Origin: Nitrospinota bacterium
GTDB taxonomy: Bacteria; Tectomicrobia; Entotheonellia; J063
Direction: 5' to 3'
NCBI GenBank assembly: GCA_003696125.1
Contig: RFHZ01000986.1
Location: 1-5,506, forward strand
Length of the DNA stretch: 5,506 nucleotides
Position 1 is the first letter of the stretch; each line of letters opens with the position of its first letter. The position numbers and the translations under genes were made by a program. Below, piece by piece: positions 1 to 3,758 of this stretch. Under the pieces are notes generated by a model. It worked only from the letters and a program-made list of their open reading frames with translations. It was not told the DNA's origin and did not search any database.

Positions 1-326
1 CGTTGCCAGCCTCCCAATAGATGCATGTGCACGTGATCGATCACCTGGCCGCCACCGCGTCCCACGTTGACGACGAGGCGATACCCCTTCTCTGCCACCG
101 ATAACTGCATGGCCACCGTCTTGGCCGTGGTGAAGAGCTTTCCTAACAGGAGAACATCCCGCTCTTCCACCTCATTCACCGTAGCAATATGCCGTTTGGG
201 AACGAGCAGGACATGCACCGGTGCTTTGGGATTGATGTCCTTAAACACGATGATCTCGTCGTCTTCGTAGAGCACATCTGCTGGTGCCTGCTTTTCCACA
301 ATCCGACAGAAAATACAGGAAGGCAT
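1..326 (-). CDS. HIT (histidine triad) family nucleotide-binding protein, 3' end cut by window
   Basis: The 108 complete codons visible encode most of a HIT-family protein; family members are usually about 110-140 residues. The family comprises small cytosolic homodimers that hydrolyse nucleoside phosphoramidates and related adenylates (HinT type). The triad signature HVHMHLLGG sits at residues 98-106, with the three histidines at 98, 100 and 102. Also visible are an N-terminal CIFC (Cys4, Cys7), which is the zinc-binding pair in zinc-containing members, the conserved stretch INPKAPVHVLLVPKRH (31-46), and a Gly-rich loop before the triad. The ATG at 326-324 follows a GGGGAGAGG ribosome-binding region. 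A 75-base gap separates it from the selenoprotein gene upstream, so co-transcription is possible but unproven. Only the last few residues are missing at the window edge. The family is certain; the exact substrate is not known. Confidence 0.95.
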   Translation of the reverse strand, partial: MPSCIFCRIVEKQAPADVLYEDDEIIVFKDINPKAPVHVLLVPKRHIATVNEVEERDVLLLGKLFTTAKTVAMQLSVAEKGYRLVVNVGRGGGQVIDHVHMHLLGGWQ

Positions 327-401: not shown

Positions 402-944
402 CTAGCTCTCACTCCGGCCAGTCAACAGGAGCTGTACCACCTGAGGCGCAATCTCCCGCGCCCGCTGCTCAAGCTCCTCTTCCGTCAGATTGGAGGTGGG
501 ATGGGGCATGACCAGAAACGGGTAGTCGGGCACTCCCCAGGTCCTGGCCATGGCACGCCCGGTCTCTACAAAGGCATCGGTGACGATAGCAGCAGCCGGA
601 ATCCCCTGCTTCTCAAACAGAATACCGTCGAGCACACTGCCCGAGCTGCACGAGCCTCAGTCCCCAATGCCGGCGATGACCACATCGCAGTTCGCCGTGT
701 ACTCCTTGATGATCTCCTCATGTGCCGGCACGCTGGAGTTGTGCTTGCGCCGGATGATATGCCCCTGGGCCCCGTACTCCTGTTCCAGGATGGTGGCGAT
801 CTTCAGGAGCAGCTTATCCGAATTGAACTTGGTGTTATCGACCAGCCCGATGCGCAGGTTACGCAGCGATTCTGGCCTGGGAGCAAAACTAAACGGCCGC
901 TCTGGCGCCTCCAGGGTCGGATCAAAAATCTGGAGCTTTTCCAT
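402..944 (-). CDS. UGSC-family selenoprotein with in-frame TGA (selenocysteine) codon
   Basis: A 180-residue protein results if the TGA at 659-657 is read as selenocysteine (Sec96). The frame continues from the ATG at 944 through the TGA to a TAG at 404-402 without a shift. Around the TGA the protein reads GIGD-U-GSCSSGSVLDG. This is the defining motif of the UGSC family of (seleno)proteins, which exists in Sec and Cys forms. U96-G-S-C99 is a U-x-x-C redox motif like thioredoxin's C-x-x-C. Other conserved-looking blocks are GLVDNTKFNSDKLL (33-46), GIPAAAIVTDAF (114-125) and PDYPFLVMPHPTSNLT (139-154). There is no signal peptide, so it is probably cytosolic. The start is supported by AAAGGAG six bases upstream. 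The substrate is unknown; a redox role is inferred from the motif. A nonsense mutation is unlikely because both halves keep family motifs and the TGA falls exactly at the known Sec site. Annotated conventionally, it would appear as a 95-residue fragment plus a 77-residue fragment. Confidence 0.9.
628..653 (-). promoter_or_regulatory. Candidate bacterial SECIS hairpin downstream of the Sec UGA
   Basis: In the mRNA, three bases after the UGA, a 26-base segment can fold into one hairpin. The 5' arm is UCG-U-GCA-GCU, the loop CGGGC and the 3' arm AGU-(G)-UGC-U-CGA. It has nine pairs (one a G-U), one internal U-U mismatch and one bulged G. Bacterial SECIS elements are hairpins inside the coding region, directly after the UGA, with a small apical loop bound by SelB. 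The position and size fit. The loop is GG-containing rather than the GU of E. coli fdhF, and this class varies in sequence. I folded it by eye without energy calculation. Confidence 0.5.
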
Positions 945-950
945 GATGCT

Positions 951-957
951 CTCCTTT
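951..957 (-). promoter_or_regulatory. Ribosome-binding site of the UGSC selenoprotein gene
   Basis: AAAGGAG on the minus strand ends six bases before the ATG at 944. It fixes the start of the selenoprotein and indicates that the frame before the TGA is genuinely translated. Confidence 0.8.
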
Positions 958-1174: not shown

Positions 1175-2218
1175 TTAAGGGAGACGAATCTCCTTGGTTA
1201 CACTCTGGGAAGTGCGCTTGCTACCCCAGCCGGGGATATAAGCAGAAAAGGCTCCACCACGTCCCCCGGTCGCCACCACGATGAAATCCTCCGGGGTTTC
1301 CACGATCGACTGCGTGGTGGTCTCGTCTTCCGGCGTGAGAGGACCGGGAAGGACATGAATCCGCTTCAACTCGGCCAGCGAGGTCTGGGTATGCTCAAAA
1401 CAGAACCGCCTGATATCCTCTTTGGACCACCCGTCTTTGGCCATGACCTGCATGTGCTCCCCGGCGATGACCAGCACGTACTGGGGACGGCTCCTTACCC
1501 CGGCCGAGATGCGCATGTGGGCACAGGCAGTGGTCAGAATCCCCTCGGCCGTGTTGCTGAGCTGGTTGTAGAACTGGTGCGGGGCCAGGGCAGCCAGCAC
1601 GGTCACCGTGCTCTGTTCCGGTCGAAACCCGCGTTCCACATGGACCGGTGGCCAGGGACTCTCTGCCTCGTTTTCCGCGATGCAGAAAGTGTACTTTCCT
1701 GCGTGTCCCAGGGTGCTGCGGTCAAGCTGGCCGGGCAGGGTACCGATGACGTTACGCATCACCAGCCGCACCGCCCGTCCGATGGTGGCGTTGGCCCGCC
1801 AGCCCGGACCGAACAGGTTATCACCACAGTTGATATCCAGTTGGCGGGCAATGGGACCGTTCACCAGCATGAATACCGCTGCTCCACCGGTGCTGGTCGC
1901 CGGGCCGTGATAGGAGTAGCGGGGATCCCCAATCGCCTCTATGGCAGCCACAATCACCGGCATGTATTCCGGCTTGCATCCGGCCATCACGGCATTGATG
2001 GCCACCTTTTCCGCGGTGACCGATACCTGGCGGTGTTCGATAAAGGTAATCTCCTCCTCCGGTTCCAGGGCTGCCGCGTCGAGCATGGCCTGAATCCTGG
2101 CCTCGGTCGGCGGCACCACCGGCAGGCCATCGGTCCACCCCCTGGCATAGCAGAACTCTATGGCCTCATCTATCCCAGAGACCTCATAACGGGTCGATTG
2201 CAAACTCTTTGTTCCCAT
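1175..2218 (-). CDS. Conserved protein of unknown function, possible partner of the UGSC selenoprotein
   Basis: This 347-residue protein has no signal peptide or membrane segment. I recognise it as a conserved family of unknown function, not a characterised enzyme. Its landmarks are GWTDGLPVVPPTEARIQAML near the N terminus (27-46), AVMAGCKPEYMPVIVAAIEA (76-95), GPATSTGGAAVFMLVNGPIA (105-124), NCGDNLFGPGWRANATIGRA (130-149), GHAGKYTFCIAENEAESPWP (171-190) and AGEHMQVMAKDGWSKEDIRR (252-271). A Gly-rich block, VVATGGRGGAFSAY, lies near the end (314-327). Six cysteines (23, 81, 131, 179, 232, 273) occur, with Cys81 and Cys131 inside the most conserved-looking blocks. My recollection is that proteins with this GW-DGLP-PPT start are often encoded near UGSC-family proteins, which fits here, but I could not search. 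The ATG follows tandem AGGAG/GAGGAG ribosome-site sequences. The gap from the upstream small gene is only 18 bases, indicating co-transcription with it. Confidence 0.88.
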   Translation of the reverse strand: MGTKSLQSTRYEVSGIDEAIEFCYARGWTDGLPVVPPTEARIQAMLDAAALEPEEEITFIEHRQVSVTAEKVAINAVMAGCKPEYMPVIVAAIEAIGDPRYSYHGPATSTGGAAVFMLVNGPIARQLDINCGDNLFGPGWRANATIGRAVRLVMRNVIGTLPGQLDRSTLGHAGKYTFCIAENEAESPWPPVHVERGFRPEQSTVTVLAALAPHQFYNQLSNTAEGILTTACAHMRISAGVRSRPQYVLVIAGEHMQVMAKDGWSKEDIRRFCFEHTQTSLAELKRIHVLPGPLTPEDETTTQSIVETPEDFIVVATGGRGGAFSAYIPGWGSKRTSQSVTKEIRLP

Positions 2219-2697: not shown

Positions 2698-3681
2698 TTA
2701 CTCCTGGAAGACCTCTCGATAGGCAAAAAGGGCCGGTGTCCCCCCGGTGTGAATGAAGACGATGACCTGGTCTTTGCGAAAGACCCCTTGCCGTACCAGG
2801 TCGATCAGCCCGGCCATGGCCTTGCCGCTGTAGACCGGATCGAGCAGGATCCCCTCGGTACGGGCCAGGAGACGTACCGCTTCGATCATACCAGGATTCG
2901 GCACCCCGTATCCCTCCCTGGCGTACTCGTCATAGACCATAATCTCTTCCGGCGTAAATGTCAAGGGAACCTGCAGATAGGCGGCTCCTTCCCGCGCCAC
3001 CCGCAGCACATCCTCTACCAGTCGCTCTCTGGGTGCTCCATCGCTGATCCCGATGATCTGCGCCTGGCTGTGGAGGAGTTTGGCACCGAGCACCAGGCCT
3101 CCCTGTGTCCCCCCACTCCCCGACGCGGCAACAATGGCATCGATCGGGATCCCCAGCTCGTTGGCCTGCATCTCCAGCTCGTGCACGACACTTGCGTACC
3201 CGACAGCCCCGATCCCGTTAGACCCTCCGGTCGGGATGATGTAGGGATGCTTTCCCTGGGAACGGAGTTCTGCAGCGATACGCTCCATGGTCGGTTGACG
3301 CTCTTCCCGCTTTTCCACCAGCACGATCCTGGCTCCCAGGATCTGGTCCAGGAGCAGGTTGCCGGTCACTTCCCTCCTTTCCCCCTGATCCAGCACCAGG
3401 ACGCATTCCATGCCGCAGCGTATGGCGGCAGCCACGGTCTGCCGGCAGTGATTGGACTGCACCCCTCCCTCGGTAATCAGCGTATCGGCCCCCTGTTTTT
3501 GGGCATGGCCGAGGAGAAACTCGAGCTTGCGGGTCTTGTTCCCCCCAAAGGCCAGACCGGTGCAGTCATCCCGTTTGATAAAGAGGCGAGGACCTCCCAG
3601 GGTCCGGGTCAAGACCTGCATCTCTTCGAGCGGGGTGGGAAGATGGGCGAGTCGGACACGAGGAAACTTTCCTAAGAACAT
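2698..3681 (-). CDS. dcyD: PLP-dependent D-cysteine desulfhydrase / ACC deaminase family protein
   Basis: This 327-residue fold-type II PLP enzyme has the family's usual length. D-cysteine desulfhydrase converts D-cysteine to pyruvate, sulfide and ammonia; close relatives are ACC deaminase and L-cysteate sulfo-lyase. Visible motifs are IKRDDCTGLAFGGNKTRKLE (35-54), with Lys49 as the Schiff-base lysine, and EGGVQSNHCRQT (71-82), with the catalytic Ser76. Further along are TGGSNGIGAVGY (151-162), GSGGT (188-192) and HTGGTPALF (311-319). Two positions separate the activities: ACC deaminase has Glu in VYEGK and Leu in HLGG. Here they are Ser285 (VYSGK) and Thr312 (HTGG), the pair linked to D-cysteine desulfhydrase activity. 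L-cysteate sulfo-lyase cannot be excluded. No signal peptide is present, so it acts in the cytosol. A near-perfect AGGAGGT stands seven bases before the ATG. It lies 73 bases after phoU and probably has its own promoter. Confidence 0.88.
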   Translation of the reverse strand: MFLGKFPRVRLAHLPTPLEEMQVLTRTLGGPRLFIKRDDCTGLAFGGNKTRKLEFLLGHAQKQGADTLITEGGVQSNHCRQTVAAAIRCGMECVLVLDQGERREVTGNLLLDQILGARIVLVEKREERQPTMERIAAELRSQGKHPYIIPTGGSNGIGAVGYASVVHELEMQANELGIPIDAIVAASGSGGTQGGLVLGAKLLHSQAQIIGISDGAPRERLVEDVLRVAREGAAYLQVPLTFTPEEIMVYDEYAREGYGVPNPGMIEAVRLLARTEGILLDPVYSGKAMAGLIDLVRQGVFRKDQVIVFIHTGGTPALFAYREVFQE

Positions 3682-3729: not shown

Positions 3730-3758
3730 ACTCTAGCAGCTTTCCCCCAGGGGTTCAA
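3730..3758 (-). promoter_or_regulatory. Candidate sigma70-type promoter for the D-cysteine desulfhydrase gene
   Basis: The minus strand carries TTGAAC (3758-3753) and TAGAGT (3735-3730) separated by exactly 17 bases. Each box matches four of six consensus positions. The -35 box overlaps the phoU stop codon, and the predicted transcript would start some 40 bases before the ATG at 3681. The spacing and position are good, but boxes of this quality can occur by chance. Confidence 0.35.

Follow-up and report, generated by a model that had tools for sequence, protein, structure and literature searches.

The gene at positions 402 to 944 of the window (the whole 5,506-nucleotide stretch of DNA analyzed) raises the question of whether its in-frame TGA is decoded as selenocysteine (Sec) and, if so, what kind of enzyme the product would be. 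Translation of 944-402 on the minus strand with TGA as Sec gives 180 residues with a single in-frame TGA (U96), set in the motif G-I-G-D-U-G-S-C and followed by 84 codons up to a TAG. This retranslation bears out the coordinates, the residue number 96, and both end points that had been proposed from the sequence alone, and the ribosome site claimed upstream of the ATG corresponds to a Shine-Dalgarno sequence at 956-951. The features of the gene are as follows.

402-944, minus strand: UGSC-family selenoprotein gene, 180 aa, Sec96, with PF24696 and NF041046 matches spanning the TGA.
657-659, minus strand: in-frame TGA, the Sec96 codon, which is TGA in nearly all homologues and TGC in five loci, the column being Sec or Cys throughout.
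951-956, minus strand: Shine-Dalgarno AAGGAG, 6 nt 5' of the ATG, read from the sequence.

Under plain code 11, the same DNA yields a 95-aa frame (657-944) and a separate 77-aa GTG open reading frame (402-635), so that standard annotation would split the gene, as the sequence-only reading had anticipated. That reading had also placed both conserved halves in the UGSC family, which agrees with one PF24696 match over residues 5-174 that bridges the TGA (E = 1.4e-61; 208.1 bits, cut-off 25) and with NF041046, on which the protein scores 146.1 bits where 125 is required. By these profile matches, which lie far beyond chance, the product is an ordinary full-length UGSC member. The gene itself is no different from the rest of the NF041046/PF24696 family, with Sec at the defining motif, and taken alone it adds one more member to a selenoprotein family already known. 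The earlier description of an "undescribed redox system" is partly right: the family, whose name dates from 2008, is already curated, and it has no assigned function.

The genome of the window (G000) was found to carry the components of Sec insertion that the sequence-only reading had pointed to, namely a tRNA-Sec (74 bits, anticodon TCA by ARAGORN), selB (E = 2.4e-115), selA (E = 5e-168), and selD, which has its own in-frame TGA; selA and selD are truncated by contig ends. Across five genomes of the phylum, four to eight UGSC matches were present per genome, and all those with an intact motif had TGA at that position. When 56 homologues drawn from many phyla were aligned, every one had Sec or Cys in the column of residue 96, as the same reading had supposed, and Gly at column 97 was invariant. 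A true TGC replaces TGA in Candidimonas, Parapusillimonas, two Mycobacterium, and one Acetobacteraceae (L092, L095, L109, L116, and L124). At three further loci (L097 725-1234, L102 3372-3878, and L103 3233-3736), the motif reads HUGSS, with Cys99 changed to Ser and TGA retained, which implies that Sec is the essential residue and the second Cys is dispensable. Cys-type UGSC is not strictly tied to absence of selB, which is present in Parapusillimonas and both mycobacteria; in Candidimonas, selB did not exceed the cut-off. A Betaproteobacteria UBA5216 metagenome-assembled genome (MAG; G023, behind L049) holds 35 UGSC genes, with TGA in those listed, and no selB match at E ≤ 1e-50, perhaps owing to incompleteness of the MAG. 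Elsewhere, a UGSC gene (L044 1498-2006) and a partner gene (L026 432-1413) each span two frames, by frameshift or sequencing error.

Comparison of the DNA 3' of the TGA in close orthologues, where this stretch is strongly conserved, traced a further element.

628-644, minus strand: SECIS-type hairpin UCGGGC-AGUGU-GCUCGA, with 6 of 6 pairs here, at least 5 pairs kept in 92 of 96 Sec genes, and covariation.

The hairpin has a 6-bp stem and the loop AGUGU, with 18 nt from the UGA to the apical loop. A bacterial SECIS is a stem-loop just 3' of the UGA with a G among the first two loop bases, and 88 of the 96 Sec genes have such a G. Over these 96 genes, a mean of 5.58 of 6 pairs was kept, against a mean of 3.90 and a maximum of 4.24 in 500 runs of synonymous-codon replacement. 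Sliding one arm left 1.0-3.2 pairs, a control that favors the helix because the helix was discovered on these same sequences, and five Cys genes gave 3.4 pairs. Fairer tests come from the synonymous-codon replacement and from the shuffle, the latter being weakened by sequence relatedness. When 94 sequences were aligned without gaps, 92.7% of hairpin cells paired, compensatory two-sided changes occurred in 46 cells (11.1 when shuffled), and the covariation score was 0.310 (0.106 when shuffled, reached by 0 of 500 shuffles). The element was revealed only through comparison and not through folding energy, which was unremarkable 3' of the UGA (z = -0.46; short hairpin, z = -1.13), and an Rfam search of the window gave no match at E ≤ 1. 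On the strength of the alignments, the conserved and covarying hairpin is strongly supported as direct added evidence for Sec decoding.

Two other readings of the TGA can be weighed against this evidence. Were it a real stop, left by a pseudogene or a sequencing error or separating two short proteins, standard calling would divide the gene just as it does; the same TGA nevertheless recurs in nearly all homologues across phyla, with Cys in the others, and both the covariation of the hairpin and the complete Sec machinery speak against termination, so that this reading, to which we give only a marginal chance, is already refuted in practice. A genome-wide reassignment of UGA instead of Sec recoding would account for the many TGA codons that UGSC genes hold, but within those genes TGA falls almost only at the motif, and the SECIS-type hairpin is local to the UGA. 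The phoU gene of the window, moreover, does terminate at TGA (3755-3757), as the sequence-only reading had argued, and in a Chloroflexi groundwater MAG (G024), 11 of the 74 solute-binding genes whose stop could be read end in TGA; reassignment is thus scarcely conceivable. Given the machinery, the exchange of Sec with Cys, and the hairpin, the claim that TGA 659-657 is read as selenocysteine, already made from the letters alone, is almost certainly correct.

A feature absent from that earlier reading proved more telling than the motif itself, namely a nearly constant partner gene upstream.

1175-2218, minus strand: partner open reading frame, 347 aa, proposed substrate subunit, beside UGSC in 68 of 80 partner-seeded loci and fused to it elsewhere.

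The frame at 2218-1175 had no Pfam, NCBIfam, or PDB match, either singly or as a family. In the search seeded from UGSC, almost every UGSC gene of the phylum had a partner homologue beside it. Contig searches of genomes were then seeded with the partner alone, since UGSC has no conserved stretch suited to such searches, and UGSC was found nearby in 68 of 80 loci, on the same strand in all 68, with the partner first in 54 and UGSC first in 14. Of the 12 loci lacking UGSC, several are contig ends and five belong to Poribacteria. The Poribacteria loci (L069, L070, L072, L073, and L074) have shorter partner genes with no UGSC neighbor, being either orphans or cases of different partner use. True fusions occur in either order, with the Sec codon as the sole TGA in the span; at L106 (3398-8768), three fused UGSC-partner genes lie in tandem. 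UGSC and the partner therefore very likely form a functional pair, for which we infer a physical complex. Ten polar residues of the partner (D30, T38, T68, N75, N130, N143, R148, N156, E182, and K266) are invariant, as would be expected of an enzyme site. Its fold search returned encapsulin, fumarase, and RidA-like matches with Z of at most 6.8, which were not trusted.

The fold of UGSC itself was approached by an AlphaFold2 model built on 56 homologues (pLDDT 94.8), in which strands and helices alternate and Sec follows the third strand, at the point where a helix begins. The best structural neighbors of the model have Rossmann, flavodoxin, receiver, and similar folds, and by this model UGSC is a parallel alpha/beta protein and not thioredoxin-like. 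A thioredoxin-like fold was once suggested for UGSC (PMC2398784); judged on topology, the model does not have the thioredoxin arrangement, in which the redox motif follows the first core strand. No thioredoxin-fold chain was among the UGSC structural matches listed, an absence that in itself proves nothing.

A profile comparison of UGSC with the Sec domain of GrdB (glycine/sarcosine/betaine reductase) and PrdB (D-proline reductase), represented by 27 proteins, gave 95.6% probability and P = 1.1e-8, with Sec aligned on Sec. Column shuffles scored at most 28.9 against the real 58.4, after one degenerate shuffled profile (a numerical artefact that scored 131.7 on 12 columns) was set aside. Both groups have Sec between a strand and a helix, a UGxC-type motif, a conserved E-x-x-GIP block, and an HP motif, and GrdB and PrdB are likewise paired with a second subunit. 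By plain hmmscan, none of the 56 UGSC members matched Pfam GRDB (PF07355), so that the kinship rests on profiles and UGSC was not filed as GrdB; as judged from those profiles, it is probably a distant homologue of the GrdB/PrdB Sec domain. There are also differences: UGSC is shorter than GrdB and occurs in lineages with aerobic isolates, and its partner, unlike that of the glycine and D-proline reductases, is unrelated to the pyruvoyl subunit GrdE (PF09338) by profile comparison. The partner was indeed tried as a GrdE relative and rejected (profile score 14.2, under the shuffle mean of 15.7), and it showed no similarity to GrdB. The same genomes also encode Sec proteins of the GrdB and PrdB types whose genes contain an in-frame TGA, short UPxC forms among them (L129-L145 and L158-L177).

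By analogy with the proline and glycine reductases, we put at about even odds that UGSC contributes the Sec subunit to a catabolic reductase that has two subunits and is specific for its substrate, a proposal in which we infer the complex, the chemistry, and the substrate. In this scheme, the SECIS hairpin directly 3' of the UGA would let TGA 659-657 be read as Sec, and the 347-aa upstream protein would be the other subunit and would bind an organic substrate taken up by the cell. The Sec selenolate would then attack the bound substrate, leading to reductive bond cleavage as in proline reductase; Cys99 or an external thiol could free the oxidized Sec, and paralogous pairs would handle different substrates.

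Its UxxC motif could also suit UGSC to the role of a general thiol-disulfide oxidoreductase of thioredoxin-like fold, acting in redox homeostasis. Such a role sits poorly with the flavodoxin/Rossmann-type alternation of the confident model and its structural neighbors, with the replacement of Cys99 by Ser while Sec persists, and with a nearly constant partner in a catabolic neighborhood; more than 100 paralogues within a single genome are also hard to square with housekeeping, and we regard this reading as improbable. A two-subunit catabolic enzyme that uses Sec as a nucleophile in non-reductive chemistry (a lyase, isomerase, dehalogenase, or hydrolase) deserves more weight and is still unlikely. 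The evidence from partner and context would suit a catabolic enzyme of any kind, conservation of Cys99 is not strict, and the fold of the partner echoes class I fumarase and cyclic-amide hydrolases, weakly and without significance; the profile similarity, however, is to GrdB and PrdB, both reductases. In known bacterial enzymes, Sec nearly always serves as a redox residue, which also counts against non-reductive chemistry and leaves a substrate-specific reductase as our preferred reading.

The surroundings of the pairs bear on what such a reductase might act upon. Genes near the pairs encode TctC receptors (12 loci), LysR-like regulators (5 loci), SDRs, and class III CoA-transferases, these families being confirmed on representatives only and LysR from its sequence. 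In G024 (JACPQD01, 5 Mb, behind L106 and L108; loci L236-L255), UGSC-partner pairs alternate with SBP_bac_5 solute-binding protein genes. Within 381 kb of this genome, an SBP_bac_5 gene lies on the same strand and no more than 3 kb away for 63 of the 78 UGSC domains; the null distribution has a mean of 41.7 and a maximum of 56. Such genomes are rich in TctC and SBP genes, so this association is suggestive only, and gene context may point to uptake and processing of organic substrates.

The same Chloroflexi MAG displays a striking expansion of the family, with at least 150 UGSC matches, about 146 of them with an in-frame TGA. The 381 kb that were read directly contain 76 partner domains alongside the 78 UGSC domains, 75 of which have exactly one TGA. 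Median pairwise identity among these copies is 27% and only two have a relative more than 90% identical, so duplication during assembly does not explain them. Many share the hairpin described above, and in others it seems to have moved slightly (26 of 75 have 6 pairs and 15 have 5). The largest bacterial selenoproteome published comprises 63 selenoprotein genes (PMC13188914), a figure that the copies in G024 would more than double, and the expansion suggests that carbon turnover in subsurface and aquatic settings places a large, unrecognized demand on selenium.

Taken with the distribution of the pairs, UGSC and its partner look like a widespread two-part bacterial enzyme, a distant cousin, as far as comparison of sequences can tell, of the Sec-dependent amino-acid reductases. 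More tentatively, at somewhat below an even chance, the pair may be a new class of Sec-dependent two-subunit catabolic reductases, kin to proline and glycine reductase only through the Sec domain and with substrate-specific paralogues reaching more than 100 per genome, some groundwater bacteria thereby committing much of their carbon metabolism to Sec enzymes. Figure S1A of the Global Ocean Sampling selenoproteome (PMC2398784) includes a UGSC/Unknown_1 fusion, Unknown_1 being given as a domain of limited distribution. Unknown_1 is probably the partner seen here; that 2008 study saw it as a fusion, whereas here the two form a gene pair in many phyla and in both orders. No account of the paired system, the SECIS element, the fold, or the GrdB/PrdB link was found in the open-licence papers searched, and one may exist elsewhere. 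With the partner, the fold, and the closest relatives named, UGSC is no longer an orphan and can be tested as an enzyme with two defined subunits. The solute-binding proteins next door offer a direct route to the substrate, and gene removal is feasible since Cys-type pairs occur in cultured isolates.

Beyond the partner, the remaining genes of the window do not seem to belong to the system; a single one holds its position, and does so within this phylum only.

3-326, minus strand: HIT-domain gene, 3' of UGSC, identified by PF01230 and by synteny.

The order partner-UGSC-HIT was seen in each of the four other genomes of the phylum that were compared and not at orthologous loci of other phyla. 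A small open reading frame (2237-2686) and a CuyA-like gene (2698-3681) were considered as parts of the system and rejected, neither being beside the pair in orthologous loci. The latter gene, on the minus strand, encodes a PLP enzyme whose nearest match is the D-cysteate sulfo-lyase CuyA, at 430 bits where the cut-off is 450, and the only model it passes is TIGR01275, a D-cysteine desulfhydrase/ACC-deaminase-related subfamily model.
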